Below, piece by piece: positions 12,411 through 18,634 of a stretch of 64,000 nucleotides of DNA. The position numbers and the translations under genes are program-made. Origin of the DNA: Betaproteobacteria bacterium (GTDB lineage: Bacteria > Pseudomonadota > Gammaproteobacteria > Burkholderiales > SG8-39); assembly GCA_029883975.1 (NCBI GenBank), contig JAOUIL010000003.1, positions 1 to 64,000 on the forward strand. Direction: 5' to 3'. Within the stretch, counting starts at the first letter, position 1, and each line of letters starts with the position of its first letter. The notes under the pieces were generated by a model. The model was not told where the DNA came from, ran no database searches, and saw nothing but the letters and a program-made list of their open reading frames with translations.

Positions 12411-13037
12411 TCACGCGCGGAACAGGTGCAGCGCTTCCTCCCGGTCGATGAGCCAGGGGATGTACTTACCGGCCACGATCCAGCCCAGGCCAAACGCGCC
12501 GAGCGCAATTGCTTCGGCCCAGTAGGTCACGCGGAGCGCTTTCAGGGTCTCCGGCGGCAGCGCGAAGTTGGCGACGAGCGCAGCCAGCATGCACGCGACC
12601 ATGATCAGGCCGCAGACGAAGTAGATCTTGCTGCGCCGGCCCTTCTTCCCGGGCATGCCCTTGGTCTTCATGCGGAAGTAGACGAAGCAGAAGTAGGCGA
12701 GGATGGAGAAGAGCACCCCCGCCGCGACGTAGTGGGTCACAGATACGGCGGTCGTCGGGCAGGTGTCGCATGCCGTAGGCAAGAGCGCCACGGCGATTGC
12801 CGCGACGGACGCGGTCTTGCTCCAGCGGCTCTCCGCCGGCGCATGGCCGTTGTAGGCCCACAGGAGCGCGGCGACGACGAACAGCAGGCCGACGAAGAAG
12901 TCGCGGCTCTCGGTATGGTAGGAAGCGCTGATGGACGACAGGGCCGTCGTGGAGATCGCGCTCACCACGATGGGGAGCGCCACGGCGATGATGCCCATCA
13001 GCAGGCGCAGCGCGCGGTAGTCGAAGACCGGTGTCAT
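12411..13037 (-). CDS. Hypothetical multi-pass membrane protein
   Basis: A 208-residue protein with about five or six hydrophobic segments and no recognised family. The segment DTCPTTAVSVTHYVAAGVLFSIL contains two close cysteines. The start MTPVFDYRALRLLMG at 13037 follows GGGAGGGCGG and is preferred over the ORF-track start. The 206-base gap downstream (12205-12410) shows only short tandem GAATGCCCG-type repeats. It marks the last host gene before the cassette array. Confidence 0.6.
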   Translation of the reverse strand: MTPVFDYRALRLLMGIIAVALPIVVSAISTTALSSISASYHTESRDFFVGLLFVVAALLWAYNGHAPAESRWSKTASVAAIAVALLPTACDTCPTTAVSVTHYVAAGVLFSILAYFCFVYFRMKTKGMPGKKGRRSKIYFVCGLIMVACMLAALVANFALPPETLKALRVTYWAEAIALGAFGLGWIVAGKYIPWLIDREEALHLFRA

Positions 13038-13369
13038 GACCGCCCTCCCCTCGACAGGCCGCAACGCGGCTAGCATGCGCCCGAACGCACGCGCTTGCGC
13101 GTGCCGTCAGGCCGTCACGGAATATCAGATAACCAGATATCTCGGCGGGCGCTATATGAGCCACCGCGCACCCCCCAGCCACGCCGCGCGGAAACTCGGA
13201 CGTCAGCGGCAGGCAGCCAGGGTCGGCGGGTTCTGGCCTGAGCACGGGTGATCGACTTGGTCCGCGTAATTCCCGGACCGGTTCAGGCCATTTGCAGCCT
13301 GCGCAGCGCGTAGACGGCCATCGTGCCGGCAATTGGACTCTTCTCAAGTGTGAGTTCGAGGTGTCCACT
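13038..13369. other. Intergenic region with AT-rich dyad, distal edge of cassette array
   Basis: No credible gene is visible. An AT-rich patch at about 13125-13160 contains AGATATCT and related inverted half-sites (ATATCAGATAACCAGATATC) in otherwise GC-rich DNA. It could be the promoter/operator of the membrane gene starting at 13037. No attC site was found here, although the last cassette should end in one, so the array's distal end may be eroded. The 71-residue plus-strand ORF (13036-13251) has no coding character. Confidence 0.4.
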
Positions 13370-13852
13370 TTATCGAATGAGGTTCCCCGTCCGCACCACT
13401 GCCAGGCTATGCTCGTTCCGATCCCACCTCTGGTCCGCAATCGAGTTGTTCATTCGACCCAGAACTTCGGGATGCCGTCTTCCACCGTGAAACCAAAAAA
13501 GCATGGCGCTGTTCACGTCTGTCATCACGAGCTGGTTCGGGGTCATGCGATTGCGCTGTAACCGGACGCTGGTGGTACCCGTCTCTCGCGTGAAGCACAC
13601 TTGATCCTTGCCTTTGATTTCCCACATCCGCGGCTGAGGTTGTTTTCCCGGCTCGATGAAGATTCCTTTGCCATCGGCACGATAGTGCCCGACACGGCCG
13701 GCGCTGAATTTGAACGTCTTGTTGGAGAAAAGCTCGCGAAGTTCTTGCGGATTCCTGATGTCGATCCAGTCCTTTGGACTCTGCGCCACCGCGGGCGCAC
13801 ACAGCGCGCAAGTCAAAGCGGTTGCCAGATATGTGACGCGTCTCAATTTCAT
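13370..13852 (-). CDS. Secreted hypothetical cassette protein with probable 1-nt frameshift
   Basis: The open frame gives 160 residues with signal peptide MKLRRVTYLATALTCALCAPAVA, then DWIDIRNPQELRELFSNKTF and VGHYRADGKGIFIEPG. After NSAMLF the frame becomes WFHGGRRHPEVLGR, but removing one base from the A6 run at 13495-13500 gives GFTVEDGIPKFWVE and a stop at 13450. That is a far more protein-like ending, so the last about 40 residues are probably read in the wrong frame. The cause is either a homopolymer sequencing error or real decay. The function is unknown; it is likely periplasmic. It is the last recognisable cassette gene. Confidence 0.65.
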   Translation of the reverse strand: MKLRRVTYLATALTCALCAPAVAQSPKDWIDIRNPQELRELFSNKTFKFSAGRVGHYRADGKGIFIEPGKQPQPRMWEIKGKDQVCFTRETGTTSVRLQRNRMTPNQLVMTDVNSAMLFWFHGGRRHPEVLGRMNNSIADQRWDRNEHSLAVVRTGNLIR

Positions 13853-13892
13853 GGCGTTGCCTTCCAGGGCGTTAGATTAGGAATGATCAGGA

Positions 13893-13922
13893 CTACGCCA
13901 GGGCCACAATATCGCGCGTCAT
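13893..13922 (-). CDS. Nine-codon mini-ORF with perfect Shine-Dalgarno at cassette start
   Basis: The minus strand reads AAAGGAGGTGACAC-ATG followed by codons for MTRDIVALA and TAG. The AAAGGAGGTGA (13926-13936) is the best ribosome-binding site seen in the array, with ideal spacing, yet serves only nine codons. It lies 40 bases after the cassette recombination point and 40 bases before the secreted-protein gene. By analogy with the short ORF at attI1 it may raise translation of the following gene. It could also be the relic of a longer gene. Confidence 0.45.
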   Translation of the reverse strand: MTRDIVALA

Positions 13923-13959
13923 GTGTCACCTCCTTTCGCTCGCCATCGGCAGTGAGCGA

Positions 13960-14020
13960 GCCTAACGTTCCGGTTCAGCTGCGGCGCGAAGCGCCGTCCG
14001 CTGCAACCGGTTGTTAGCTG
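13960..14020 (-). other. attC recombination site 1
   Basis: A 61-bp site running on the minus strand from AGCTAAC to GTTAGGC. The arms CTAACAACCGGTTGCAGCGGACGG and the complementary left half fold into the usual imperfect hairpin with unpaired bases. The end GAACCGGAACGTTAGGC resembles the consensus of class 1-type cassettes. The 5' core CAGCTAAC matches GTTAGCTG at the start of the same cassette (17066-17073). Confidence 0.85.
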
Positions 14021-14057
14021 TTCTGACGACCGATCAGGCTTGGATCAAGCCAACGCG

Positions 14058-15467
14058 CTATTGCAGCCGCTGCAACTGCGGCGGTGTCCACTTGCCATTC
14101 AAGGCCTCCTCTTTGGGCCAGTAGAGGCGAATAACAGGCATAAACCAGCCCTTGGGCGCCGGCAACCAGTTGGACTCTTTATCCTTACCGGGGGATTCGT
14201 TCTGGAAATACAGCGTCAACCCACCATCGGCGTCGTATTTGAACTGATCCAGCATCGTCGAATTGAGGAGGTAGCGGTTGATCGAATTATCAACCAGCAG
14301 GATCTCCGGCATGCGATACATGGTTATCGACCAGAACGCGTTCACCGGCGGCAGTTGGCCCTTTGCAAAGTGCAGCGTGTAACGTTTGCTGCCATCCAGC
14401 TTTTGTCCTTCGTTATCGAGAACCAATAACGGATAGATCGCTTCGGCGGCCGAGTTGCCATAGATGCCATTGACGGCGCCTCCCATGCGATAGAGGTAGT
14501 TGTTCTTCAGGTACTCGCGCGTGCCGAACATCTGGCCGGAAGTCACTTGTTTCGCATCGATCCGTTTCTGCAGCTGAGCAAACTCGGCCAGGGCATCGGC
14601 CATGCCTTGCTCAATGGCTTTACGCATTTCAGGCGAGAGCTTGCTCGCGTCGAAGGTCTTGCCCGCGCCAACGCCGATCCTGGCAAAGCGTGCCATCAGT
14701 TGCTTTTCGGAAGGAACCGTCGGGCAGAACTCAAGAACGAAATCCAGAACACTGAAAAACTCAGGTGACGTTCTCTGTGTTTCTGGCGTGAGCGGCTTGA
14801 TGAAATCAATGGCTGGCGCCGCTATTGGAGCGGGCTGTCCCAGAAACGCGGACAGCGGTTGTGCCTTATAGCCGGCCTGTAATTTCTTTACGTTGTCGAG
14901 GTCGGCCGGATTGAAAAGCTGCGTGCGAAAAGCGCCAAAGACAAATTCGGTCTCCGACTGGATCACCTTCTTGATGCCTTTGGGTGCCTTGCCTTTCCAG
15001 TTTGGTCCGGCAATCAGGTAGCTGCCGCCGTCGTTGCCGGTGGTCCGGCTGCCGATATAGGCAAAATTATGGGTATAGGCATCGACGAGCTGGACGGAGA
15101 AATAGCGCTTCTTGTCTATCTTCGGCACGGTGAGCACAATGGGCTCGGCGCGCAAATCCATACCGATGAAAGAGTACGGTGTGTCCGAATTGGGTGTCTG
15201 GATGGCGGTGTCCTGCGGCGTGAAGACGCGAGGAACGTTGAGCAGTTGATTCCAGGGTGCTTTGTAATTGGGGTCTTTTTTCTCATGAAAGTAGGAGTAC
15301 TGGATGCGGTAGTGGTCCACCATCGGGAAACCGTAAATGTAGGCCTCCTTGGCGATGGCGCGGGCTTCCGCGGGGGTGACGGATTGTGCAGCGTGCGCCG
15401 CCGGGAACACCCACGTGGCAAGCAACGCCATTGTGAAGGCGATGGCTTTTGCGCTTTTGGTTTTCAT
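14058..15467 (-). CDS. DUF1254/DUF1214 secreted protein (cassette)
   Basis: About 469 residues with a signal peptide (MKTKSAKAIAFTMALLATWVFPAAHA). DUF1254 follows (AYIYGFPMVDHYR; NSDTPYSFIGMDLRAEPIVLTVP), then DUF1214 at the C-terminus (NAFWSITMYRM; FQNESPGKDKESNWLPAPKG). The family is widespread and secreted but has no established biochemical role. The ATG at 15467 is chosen because the signal peptide begins there; an ATG at 15488 is also in frame. It lies six bases after the upstream homologue's stop region, so both are co-transcribed in one cassette. The stop is 38 bases before attC 1. Confidence 0.85.
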   Translation of the reverse strand: MKTKSAKAIAFTMALLATWVFPAAHAAQSVTPAEARAIAKEAYIYGFPMVDHYRIQYSYFHEKKDPNYKAPWNQLLNVPRVFTPQDTAIQTPNSDTPYSFIGMDLRAEPIVLTVPKIDKKRYFSVQLVDAYTHNFAYIGSRTTGNDGGSYLIAGPNWKGKAPKGIKKVIQSETEFVFGAFRTQLFNPADLDNVKKLQAGYKAQPLSAFLGQPAPIAAPAIDFIKPLTPETQRTSPEFFSVLDFVLEFCPTVPSEKQLMARFARIGVGAGKTFDASKLSPEMRKAIEQGMADALAEFAQLQKRIDAKQVTSGQMFGTREYLKNNYLYRMGGAVNGIYGNSAAEAIYPLLVLDNEGQKLDGSKRYTLHFAKGQLPPVNAFWSITMYRMPEILLVDNSINRYLLNSTMLDQFKYDADGGLTLYFQNESPGKDKESNWLPAPKGWFMPVIRLYWPKEEALNGKWTPPQLQRLQ

Positions 15468-15493
15468 GTCTTCTGTTTCCAATTGCATTTCGA

Positions 15494-17014
15494 TTATTTG
15501 ACCAGCTCAAAATCACCGGGCTTCCAGGTCTTGTCGAACCAGGGCTGGAGCGGGCCGTACAGACGCAATAGCACGTTCCAGCCCTTGCCGGGCACAGTCT
15601 GCACCCAGTTGGACTCGTGACCCTTCGGTGCGGTCGGGCCGAACCAGACGTCCACCGAGGAGTCGGCATTGATGACGACACCTTTTCTCTGGCTGCTGAT
15701 GCTCGGGAACTGATGGTCGGTCTGCAGCATCGAACGCGTCTGGTTGTCATAGACCACGATTGACCAGAAGTTCTTGGCCGGGATGTTGGGTGGCAGGTGA
15801 ATCTTGTAGGTCTTGCTGCCATCCAGCGGCTTGCCCTCGGAATCGGTGGTCGCCGCGGCGTACTGAGAACCGACGCCGACGATCTTCATCGCCATGGCGG
15901 GGGTGATGCCGGTGGCGTAGTAGTGGAACAGGACGCGTCCATCGAGGTTGCGAACGCCGGGTTGCTTCAGGAACTCGTAGCTGCCGCCGGCGAAACTGGT
16001 GAACCACTTCCGATCTGGGTAGTAGTAGACGCCGTCGATGCGGGGACGAAACGTAAGGGCGCGCGAAGTCGCACTGGCCACTGCCGCCGCCTCGGTGAGG
16101 ATCTTTTTCATGCGGGCATCGGGCGCGAAATTCTTGTCCTTCTCGATGCCGATGGCGGCGAGCAGGCCGAGCGTTTCCGGATTCAGCGCTTCGTTCGGTT
16201 CATACTGAACAATCGCGTTCACTTCCTCGTAGAAGTGGAAGTCGTTGGCATGAATCGTGTTGAATTCCTTGCCCGATACATTGATGAACTTCATCGGCGG
16301 CGGGTTCTTCGCATCGGAGAGCGAATAGACCTTGAAGAAGTTCTTGGTGTTGTCGAGGGACGTTTTCGTGCTGCCGTTGTCCAGGAAGCCACGATAGAAC
16401 ATCAGGTTGCCATAGGTTGGTGAGCGCATCACGACATAACCTTTCGGCACCTCACCCTTGTACCCCGGGGGCAGGAGCAGAAACTTGCCACCCTTGCCCT
16501 TATCCGGGCCAGCGTTTCCAAAGTCGCCCACATACTTGAACCAGTGGTCATCAACGATGCCGAGGACGTTCGGTGGCGTTTCGAGGACTAGCGGTCCCTT
16601 GCTGGTGTCCAGCCACGCCATGTGGTAGACGCTCTCGGTATTGGGTGTCAAGAAGAGCGACTTCGAGTCCATCAGGCGTTCCATGATGAGCAGGGTCTGG
16701 TTGTTCACCGCCCCCTGGCTGGCCCACCCAACACGGATAGCTTCAGCCGACGCACCCGGCATCGCGTTGAGAAAGGCCTCTACGCCGCGCATGAAGTCGA
16801 GGTTGTCATAGACCTTCTGCGTGGTGGCATCGTCAGGAAAACCATCGAAGAATTTCAACGTGCCGATGCGTGTCTCGACGCTGTCCGGCGTGGTGATGGC
16901 CTTGGGAATGTCCGTCGTCATCTTCATCTGCGGGGGCGCCGCCGCGAACGTGGCTGTTGCCAAGAAGAGCAGCGCGCCAAGAGTGCCGCTTACTTGGGCT
17001 GGAGTAATTTTCAT
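15494..17014 (-). CDS. DUF1254/DUF1214 secreted protein (cassette)
   Basis: 506 residues with signal peptide MKITPAQVSGTLGALLFLATATFAAA. The N-terminal DUF1254 region includes MRGVEAFLNAMPGASAEAIRVGW and FLTPNTESVYHMAWLDTSKGPLVLE, and the C-terminal DUF1214 region includes NFWSIVVYDNQTRSMLQTDHQFPS and PKGHESNWVQTVPGKGW. It is a divergent paralogue of the next gene. The start has AGAGGAAG just upstream and lies 58 bases after the cassette recombination point. The two genes make this cassette about 3.1 kb, large for an integron cassette. Base composition is clearly lower in GC than the host genes. Confidence 0.86.
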   Translation of the reverse strand: MKITPAQVSGTLGALLFLATATFAAAPPQMKMTTDIPKAITTPDSVETRIGTLKFFDGFPDDATTQKVYDNLDFMRGVEAFLNAMPGASAEAIRVGWASQGAVNNQTLLIMERLMDSKSLFLTPNTESVYHMAWLDTSKGPLVLETPPNVLGIVDDHWFKYVGDFGNAGPDKGKGGKFLLLPPGYKGEVPKGYVVMRSPTYGNLMFYRGFLDNGSTKTSLDNTKNFFKVYSLSDAKNPPPMKFINVSGKEFNTIHANDFHFYEEVNAIVQYEPNEALNPETLGLLAAIGIEKDKNFAPDARMKKILTEAAAVASATSRALTFRPRIDGVYYYPDRKWFTSFAGGSYEFLKQPGVRNLDGRVLFHYYATGITPAMAMKIVGVGSQYAAATTDSEGKPLDGSKTYKIHLPPNIPAKNFWSIVVYDNQTRSMLQTDHQFPSISSQRKGVVINADSSVDVWFGPTAPKGHESNWVQTVPGKGWNVLLRLYGPLQPWFDKTWKPGDFELVK

Positions 17015-17066
17015 GATTCGGCTTCCTCTTTGTCTATGTTTTGTGAGTTCTGCCTATGGGTAATAC

Positions 17067-17148
17067 AGCTAACGTTCCGGCTTTGCCGCGCGGTGCGCAG
17101 CGCGCAGCGCCAAGCGTAACGCGTCGGTCAACAACCGGCTGTTAGATG
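17067..17148 (-). other. attC recombination site 2
   Basis: About 82 bp from ATCTAAC to GTTAGCT on the minus strand. It contains GTTGTTGACCGACGC and GCGGCAAAGCCGGAACGTTAG, shared almost exactly with attC 4. The 5' core GTGCCATCTAAC is the complement of GTTAGATGGCAC at the start of the same cassette (17555-17566), which confirms the cassette ends. Confidence 0.87.
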
Positions 17149-17177
17149 GCACAAGGTAAAGACTCCGCATCGTTGGC

Positions 17178-17561
17178 CTATGGCATGTCCAGCCAATAGC
17201 AGAATCCAAGAAGGTACAGCAGCAAGTGAATAGCGAGAGCCGAGGCTAGAGCTACAGGCAGCAAGGCAGCAACGGCAATTCCGACGTTGTATCTTCTCGT
17301 TACCCATGTCGTGGCGCCCGCTTCTCCGAGGACGAACGCGGCAGACCAGATGCGGCAGTTATCGTGAAATGGAGTCGGAGCGCCATGGACTCCGATAGAA
17401 CTGCACGAGAACTCGTAGGCGCAAAAGGGCAAGAAGAGGGGGTTAACGACATAGATCAGAGGCCAGGCGAGCACGAGCACCGCCACAGTGAGAATAGGCG
17501 GGATTGCTGCGATGCCAATCAGCCGCAGCGCTAATTGCGCCGTGTTGATTGCCTGTGCCAT
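17178..17561 (-). CDS. Small multi-pass membrane protein (cassette)
   Basis: 127 residues with about three or four hydrophobic helices (IGIAAIPPILTVAVLVLAWPLIYVV; VGIAVAALLPVALASALAIHLLLYLL). No family is recognised. The ATG lies inside the attC core (GTTAGATGGC), a common placement for integron cassette genes, so translation depends on the upstream context or Pc transcript. There is no Shine-Dalgarno. Confidence 0.65.
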   Translation of the reverse strand: MAQAINTAQLALRLIGIAAIPPILTVAVLVLAWPLIYVVNPLFLPFCAYEFSCSSIGVHGAPTPFHDNCRIWSAAFVLGEAGATTWVTRRYNVGIAVAALLPVALASALAIHLLLYLLGFCYWLDMP

Positions 17562-17649
17562 CTAACGTGCCCGGTAACCGGTGCGTGCCCGGTAGCCTAG
17601 GCGCATGGCGGCGCGTCCGCACGCGTCCGCGTTGACCGGGGGGTTAGGT
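17560..17649 (-). other. attC recombination site 3
   Basis: A 90-bp site from ACCTAAC to GTTAGAT on the minus strand. CCCCCCGGTCAACGCGGACGCG and the GC-rich complementary half form an extended imperfect hairpin. The 5' core supplies the TAA stop of the GNAT gene. CTGCTACCTAAC mirrors GTTAGGTAGCAG at the cassette start (18078-18089). Confidence 0.85.
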
Positions 17650-18075
17650 AGCAGCCTTGTCATCGGGTATGAGTCGCTTTCCCAGGCTGACCGTTTGATC
17701 TTGTACATATCCCAGGCGCTCGTAGAACGCTAAGACGGCAGCATTCGTGGAGCGAATTTGCATGTTCAGCTTCGGACAGCCGATGGCTCTCAACATCTCT
17801 TCGACCCGGACCATAAGCGCCCGCCCTAGCCCGCGGCGCCTATACCGCTCTGCGACCGCTAGATAGTTGACCCAACCACGGTGGCCGTCGAACCCGGCCA
17901 TTACCGACGCTATCACGCCGCCATCCAGCAGACCCACCAAGAACAGCTCGGGCTGGACGGTGAGCTTTCTTTGGATGTCCTTGCGAGGATCGTTCCAGGG
18001 CCTGACTAAGTCACATTCGTTCCACAGACGAACGACCGCCGCTTCATCGGCGTCCTGGTATCTCCGGATATCCAC
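17644..18075 (-). CDS. GNAT family N-acetyltransferase (cassette)
   Basis: 143 residues. The acetyl-CoA loop is YRRRGLGRALMVRVEEML, preceded by WVNYLAVAERY and followed by LNMQIRSTNAAVLAFYERLGY, the standard GNAT motifs A and B. The short RimI-like size suggests a small-molecule or protein N-terminal acetyltransferase. Acetyltransferases are frequent integron cargo, some giving drug resistance, but nothing here indicates that substrate. The start is GTG, with the TAA stop inside attC 3. Confidence 0.85.
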   Translation of the reverse strand: MDIRRYQDADEAAVVRLWNECDLVRPWNDPRKDIQRKLTVQPELFLVGLLDGGVIASVMAGFDGHRGWVNYLAVAERYRRRGLGRALMVRVEEMLRAIGCPKLNMQIRSTNAAVLAFYERLGYVQDQTVSLGKRLIPDDKAAT

Positions 18076-18082
18076 TGCTGCT

Positions 18083-18163
18083 ACCTAACGTTCGCGTTTT
18101 GCCGCGCCGCACGGAGTGCGTAGCGCGGAGTAGTAGGCGTCGGTCAACAACGCGGTGTTAGGC
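18083..18163 (-). other. attC recombination site 4
   Basis: An 81-bp site from GCCTAAC to GTTAGGT. It shares GTTGTTGACCGACGC and GCGGCAAA with attC 2. It supplies the TAA stop of the 18158-18544 gene. CATGCGGCCTAAC matches GTTAGGCCGCATG at the start of its own cassette (18542-18554). Confidence 0.87.
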
Positions 18164-18544
18164 CGCATGTTTGGCCTGACGGAAGAGAACCCACGCAGCA
18201 ACCAATATCACCCACCCGATCAGAAAGACCGGTATGCCTATGCTCGATGTAAGCAAGACGGCGGTCAGAGAACCGCCGACGCAGATGCCACCGCCAATTG
18301 CGGATAACACATAGCTCTTGCGTAGGCGCGCGTTGCTATCGCTCGCGCGCTGTTCGCGGCGAGCTACGCTGCCGAATAGGGGCGCGATCAAGAGCGCCGC
18401 GACACCAATAGCCGCTCCTATCGCAGTAGGCACCCAAGGTGCGATCGTTTCTGAGCCTGGAAATCGAGACAGCGCGTACCCGAGCAAAGCACAGACCGCC
18501 ACTACGCTGATCATCTGTAAGACATTGGCAGTTGCGCGATTCAT
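18158..18544 (-). CDS. Small membrane protein (cassette)
   Basis: 128 residues with four hydrophobic helices (VLQMISVVAVCALLGYAL; WVPTAIGAAIGVAALLIAPLFG; SYVLSAIGGGICVGGSLTAVLL; IPVFLIGWVILVAAWVLF). No family is recognised. The start is the ATG in GTTAGGCCGCATGAATCG, ten bases after the recombination point. The upstream part of the ORF-track entry runs through attC 5 and is not coding. Confidence 0.65.
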   Translation of the reverse strand: MNRATANVLQMISVVAVCALLGYALSRFPGSETIAPWVPTAIGAAIGVAALLIAPLFGSVARREQRASDSNARLRKSYVLSAIGGGICVGGSLTAVLLTSSIGIPVFLIGWVILVAAWVLFRQAKHAA

Positions 18545-18547
18545 GCG

Positions 18548-18634
18548 GCCTAACGTCTTGGTGTGCCGCGGGCCAGTGCGAGGCCTTGATACCGCGGTGC
18601 GCTGGCGGCCCGTCGGCACCACCTAAAGTTAGCG
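18548..18634 (-). other. attC recombination site 5
   Basis: An 87-bp site from CGCTAAC to GTTAGGC on the minus strand with the expected complementary arms (GTGGTGCCGACGGGCC against GGCCCGCGGCACACC). It supplies the TAA stop of the toxin gene. Its 5' core GTGCTCGCTAAC matches GTTAGCGTGCAC at the attI-like junction with one mismatch. Confidence 0.85.

Follow-up and report, generated by a model that had tools for sequence, protein, structure and literature searches.

The nine-codon open reading frame (mini-ORF) on the minus strand at 13936-13893 of the window (the whole 64,000-nt stretch of DNA that was analysed) is best explained as the remnant of a separate integron cassette that became fused to the next cassette gene, which is itself decaying, a reading to which a rough probability of 0.55 is given. 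The mini-ORF follows an attC site and a strong Shine-Dalgarno (SD) sequence, and an attC R''-type box and a second SD separate it from a downstream gene that is frameshifted at its 3' end, is followed by a degenerate attC and has homologues that do not keep the mini-ORF. From this arrangement we infer the fusion, and transcription, translation and any coupling of the two ORFs are treated conditionally throughout. The initial annotation had offered translational enhancement, attenuation or a decayed gene as explanations, and the last is the best supported of the three because an R''-type box lies between the two ORFs and because the neighbouring gene and its attC have decayed as well. The site is otherwise ordinary, and is mildly interesting as a tiny fused-cassette relic.

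The reading frame itself was correctly described as a strong SD, nine codons and a stop: the minus strand reads AAAGGAGGTGACAC ATG ACG CGC GAT ATT GTG GCC CTG GCG TAG, with a near-perfect SD region at 13923-13936, AAAGGAGGTGACAC-ATG at 13936-13920, the frame MTRDIVALA plus TAG at 13893-13922 and the stop codon at 13895-13893. The distance from this stop to the main ATG at 13852, given earlier as about 40 bases, measures 40 nt. The duplex energy of the mini-ORF SD with the anti-SD is -12.9 kcal/mol, ranking first among the 1448 ATGs of the window, whereas that of the main ATG is -5.5, ranking approximately 219th. The SD was also said to be the best ribosome-binding site of the array, and it is the best among the array gene starts that were checked, the runner-up being the start of a RelB-like gene at -9.5. 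The sequence AAAGGAGGTGANNNATG, with up to two mismatches allowed, has one match in the 64 kb against 0.05 expected; the pattern AAAGGAGGTGAN{2,7}ATG has a single match in the 3.44-Mb genome, with none for the reversed control pattern, and AAAGGAGGTGA-N2-7-ATG likewise occurs once in the 3.44 Mb. When the upstream region was dinucleotide-shuffled 1000 times, no shuffle produced an ATG mini-ORF with an equally good SD. Because the SD is rare in both window and genome, ranks first in energy and is not reproduced by shuffling, it is very probably a real ribosome-binding site, present or recent, from which ribosomes may initiate. Nine-codon open frames are common and there is no promoter-like site in reach, which would suit an SD-like string that stands before an ATG by chance and was never used; against the low expectation per window, the single occurrence per genome and the shuffles, however, this is very unlikely.

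The mini-ORF lies at the end of an array (13370-18634, minus strand) with five attC sites, identified by box scanning at 18634-18548, 18163-18083, 17649-17560, 17147-17067 and 14019-13960. Array block GC is 54-64%, lower than the 69% of the window. DNA folding gave paired ends in all five sites; two of the folds stand out clearly from shuffles (z -3.9 and -3.3), the other three less so. The last clean attC, at 13960-14019 (R'' AGCTAAC, R' GTTAGGC), folds at -21.2 kcal/mol with a z-score of -3.9, and its R' box begins a leader of approximately 112 nt in which the mini-ORF directly follows. No integrase gene adjoins the array. The genome does encode an integron integrase (TIGR02249, 490 bits) elsewhere, at one end of a different contig (locus L006, 801-1898, minus strand, contig C153), which contains neither its attI nor the first cassettes. 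At the upstream end of the array, 19158-18640 on the minus strand encodes a RelB-like and ParE-like pair that, judged by eye, has the appearance of a toxin-antitoxin type cassette. The two adjoining DUF1254/DUF1214 genes at 17014-14058 (minus strand) have no attC between them and are possibly another fused pair.

Between the mini-ORF and the main gene, at 13871-13877 on the minus strand, lies the sequence ATCTAAC, which conforms to the R''-type box of an attC (RYYYAAC) and is also the R'' box of attC 17147-17067. The minus strand of the 64 kb has four RYCTAAC sequences, of which three are attC R'' boxes and the fourth is the box at 13877-13871; the other 57.8 kb have none. The shorter CTAAC occurs eight times on that strand, in the five attC sites, in the 13877-13871 box and at two other positions, and is missing from 5.1 kb of coding sequence in the array. 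RYCTAAC appears in 2.1% of mononucleotide shuffles of the leader, a frequency that was calculated only once the box had come to attention. From the mini-ORF stop to ATCTAAC there are 15 nt; in other parts of the array, R'' boxes follow their gene stops by 0-39 nt, a comparable spacing. By eye, homology to the ribosome-binding region of the main gene family starts right after the box. The box is therefore read as a remnant of the attC of the first cassette, a suggestive reading given that it comprises 7 bp only.

The main ORF (13370-13852, minus strand) encodes a small protein of 160 aa of exported type with no match in Pfam or NCBIfam. Its start at 13852 is taken to be correct because an alignment shows that the window protein has the complete family N-terminus. 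A ribosome-binding region at 13853-13868 carries GGAAGG 9 nt before the ATG, at the same position as the SDs of homologues, and in homologues L009-L012 this region aligns with the window, by eye, to approximately -20 from the main ATG. Searching the genome contigs with the single sequence found no homologues, whereas an alignment query found five loci. One relative, in a genome of the same genus, shares 47% identity over residues 4-117; further relatives are present in metagenome-assembled genomes (MAGs) labelled Deltaproteobacteria, Syntrophaceae and Desulfobacterales, and another in a genome from the class of the Syntrophaceae MAG. Other Pseudomonadota gave weak partial matches, no homologues were found in plasmids, phages or viral contigs, and Rfam returned only one sub-threshold match, taken as chance. 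Boxes resembling those of an attC downstream of the homologous gene at L011 paired weakly and were not counted.

The homologues do not keep a leader ORF, and the mini-ORF is not supported as a conserved leader of the main gene's family. No such ORF is present upstream of L004 or L010, and this absence, together with the start of the leader at an R' box, supports fusion. L009 has a 10-codon ORF at -66 that shares the frame of its gene; the related copy in genome G1205 does not keep the stop, and the matching frame there runs open into the gene. A leader ORF conserved at -66/-70, suggested by SD-like short frames in L009 and L012, was therefore rejected: the L012 frame starts with TTG, and that of L009 is in frame and lacks its stop in G1205. 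The sequence GGGCGTTATTGTTGTCAAA is common to L009 (1187-1256, plus strand) and L035 (G1205), upstream of the homologous gene, and holds the 10-codon ORF in one copy and the open in-frame extension in the other. A longer leader frame in the window, in a different phase from the mini-ORF and ending in the ATGA of the main start, is open, but by our own estimate is not rare at such length, and was also discarded.

Comparison with the family raises the possibility that the mini-ORF and its SD are a duplicated or displaced family start, with MTRDIVALA being a broken copy of the N-terminus MTSRNI... The peptide does score against family N-termini better than most shuffles, with only 10 of 500 reaching its score, and the SDs of homologues, which read GGGGAGGTGAAGCC-ATG, resemble that of the mini-ORF. 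Such a resemblance, however, is expected of any strong SD, the similarity at the DNA level is not beyond that of shuffles, and the main ORF already has a complete family N-terminus, making a duplicated start improbable.

The description of the downstream ORF as the main cassette gene holds only in part: an ORF is indeed present downstream, but it lies beyond the last clean attC, lacks an intact attC itself and is frameshifted at its 3' end relative to its homologues. The protein is family-like to approximately residue 117 and then out of frame, with a T6 run at 13495-13500 (minus strand) at or near a +1 frameshift; the family tail FTVEDGIPKF is encoded in the other frame, which runs to a TGA at 13452-13450, and the family stop TAG reads TGG in the window, so that the stop is lost. 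The frameshift at the T6 run may be real decay or an assembly error. Beyond it, at 13329-13410, the cassette ends in a degenerate attC-like region in which DNA folding found no attC-like fold remaining. Within this region, a 63-nt stretch at 13391-13329 on the minus strand (GGAACCTCATTCGATAAAGTGGACACCTCGA...) recurs at three other places in the genome, on other contigs (L023, L024 and L025), where each copy is preceded by one half of an attC (CTAACAACGCGTTGTTGACCGACGC in L023, with small differences in L024 and L025). The corresponding half attC is degraded in the window (CTGGCAGTGG...), its box CTAAC having become CTGGC. The 63-nt stretch may be a recurring array end or the scar of a small element. 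Because the tail is out of frame and the half attC is degraded and has lost its fold, the terminal cassette, judged from its sequence, is decaying at its 3' end, with a frameshift, a lost stop and a degenerate attC.

In a fused-cassette history, what survives of the older cassette would be its 5' boundary, the strong ribosome-binding site, nine codons and, from its attC, the first (R'') box, with the remaining attC and probably most of the gene lost; its intact form would begin TTAGGCTCGCTCACTGCC...AAAGGAGGTGACACATGACG. These remains would now form the leader of the 160-aa cassette gene, whose own 3' end is decaying. Consistent with this history, the first part starts at the preceding core site, the R' box GTTAGGC of attC 14019-13960, and is separated from the second ORF by the 7-bp ATCTAAC, a suggestive attC remnant. 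The first part does not contain a gene; only nine codons are left, and the locus is therefore named a fused-cassette relic and not an intact fused pair. Two further observations count against this history. The SD is perfect and shows no erosion, which fits either a recent fusion or continuing use, and no full-length match to the leader that could represent the intact cassette was found in 98 genomes of the family or in plasmids. Short likenesses of the leader to 26 nt within a gene of genome G018 and to 32 nt in Burkholderia cenocepacia were not accompanied by a matching leader and were taken as chance.

If the relic is transcribed, ribosomes would load at the strong SD, translate nine codons and stop, and at most termination-reinitiation across the 40 nt would feed the main gene. 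The same steps underlie the enhancer reading, in which the strong SD recruits ribosomes for the main gene in the manner of ORF-11, a possible but unlikely explanation of why the mini-ORF is there. The strongest SD of the window precedes a main gene whose own SD is weak (-12.9 against -5.5), and the short ORF, with its canonical translation initiation region (TIR), lies 40 nt from the cassette gene, a distance that falls in the range of 2-62 bp given for ORF-11 (PMC8876359). Because attC hairpins hinder the translation of downstream cassettes (PMC8876359), a new entry point for ribosomes beyond an attC could also be helpful. However, the main gene possesses its own SD at the family position, homologues manage without a leader ORF, the 3' end of the gene is frameshifted, and a scan for sigma-70-like sites found none in 13000-14500. 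The mini-ORF also lies after an attC inside the array and not in an attI over the recombination point, where ORF-11-type frames are located. Because the 40-nt gap falls in the reported range, help of the ORF-11 type is possible as a present by-product of the relic, which is compatible with a fused-cassette origin, rather than as a conserved device.

Attenuation fared worse. In this alternative, the main start would stay sequestered in a hairpin unless a ribosome stalled within the mini-ORF, as at cmlA, whose leader peptide has the same length of 9 aa (PMC8876359), and one predicted fold does pair the mini-ORF with the main start region. The z-score of the fold, however, is -0.43, and occlusion of the main start does not exceed that in shuffles (accessibility 0.45 against a shuffle mean of 0.47). 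A ribosome placed at the mini-ORF stop changes the accessibility of the main start by -0.04, with 243 of 300 shuffles performing equally well or better, so freeing the mini-ORF does not expose the main start, as it would if a hairpin over the downstream SD and start were opened by the ribosome. Neither conservation nor covariation could be demonstrated for the fold, the scan of 13000-14500, which covered sigma-70-like sites only, gave no promoter of its own in the 5' UTR, and the main gene has no resistance-type match. Attenuation is accordingly the least probable of the explanations considered, and is highly improbable.

A fused-cassette origin would mean that a cassette can erode to little beyond its ribosome-binding site and still precede another gene, and such erosion is how new integron leaders might arise. 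Where an array contains a mini-ORF with a strong SD, the pair may then be a fusion scar and not a regulator, and a lone attC box between two ORFs would serve as a quick check for such a scar. It is unlikely that the nine-codon ORF has been kept as a cassette-borne leader, derived from a cassette worn to its ribosome-binding site, that sets the translation of the terminal gene. If true, it would be a new, cassette-internal counterpart of ORF-11, and would imply that cassettes can be reduced to portable translation starters.

With five attC sites over 4.7 kb and no adjoining integrase gene, the array resembles those of the CALIN type; unlike these, the genome also possesses a TIGR02249 integrase gene on another contig, and on this assembly the two may or may not once have formed a single integron. 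The cmlA leader shares with the mini-ORF a nine-codon ORF, a strong SD and a long cassette 5' UTR, but at the site described here a hairpin covering the downstream start is not supported, no promoter-like site was found and no resistance gene was recognised downstream. ORF-11 (and also ORF-17 and ORF-18) at attI1 of class 1 integrons is similarly a short ORF with a strong TIR of its own shortly upstream of a cassette gene. ORF-11, however, is part of attI1 and terminates at the core site of the inserted cassette, whereas the mini-ORF lies inside the array after an attC, and the gene downstream of the mini-ORF has its own SD. Fused cassettes with a truncated attC have been described (PMC8876359), and in the fusion of the blaGES-1 and aacA4 cassettes the attC is reduced to a 6-bp 1L core site (PMC4670013). 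The present case differs from blaGES-1/aacA4 in that its first part consists of nine codons only and its second gene and attC are decaying. The two are alike in that two cassette parts are joined, the first attC is cut to its first core box, and the first TIR may be coupled to translation downstream.
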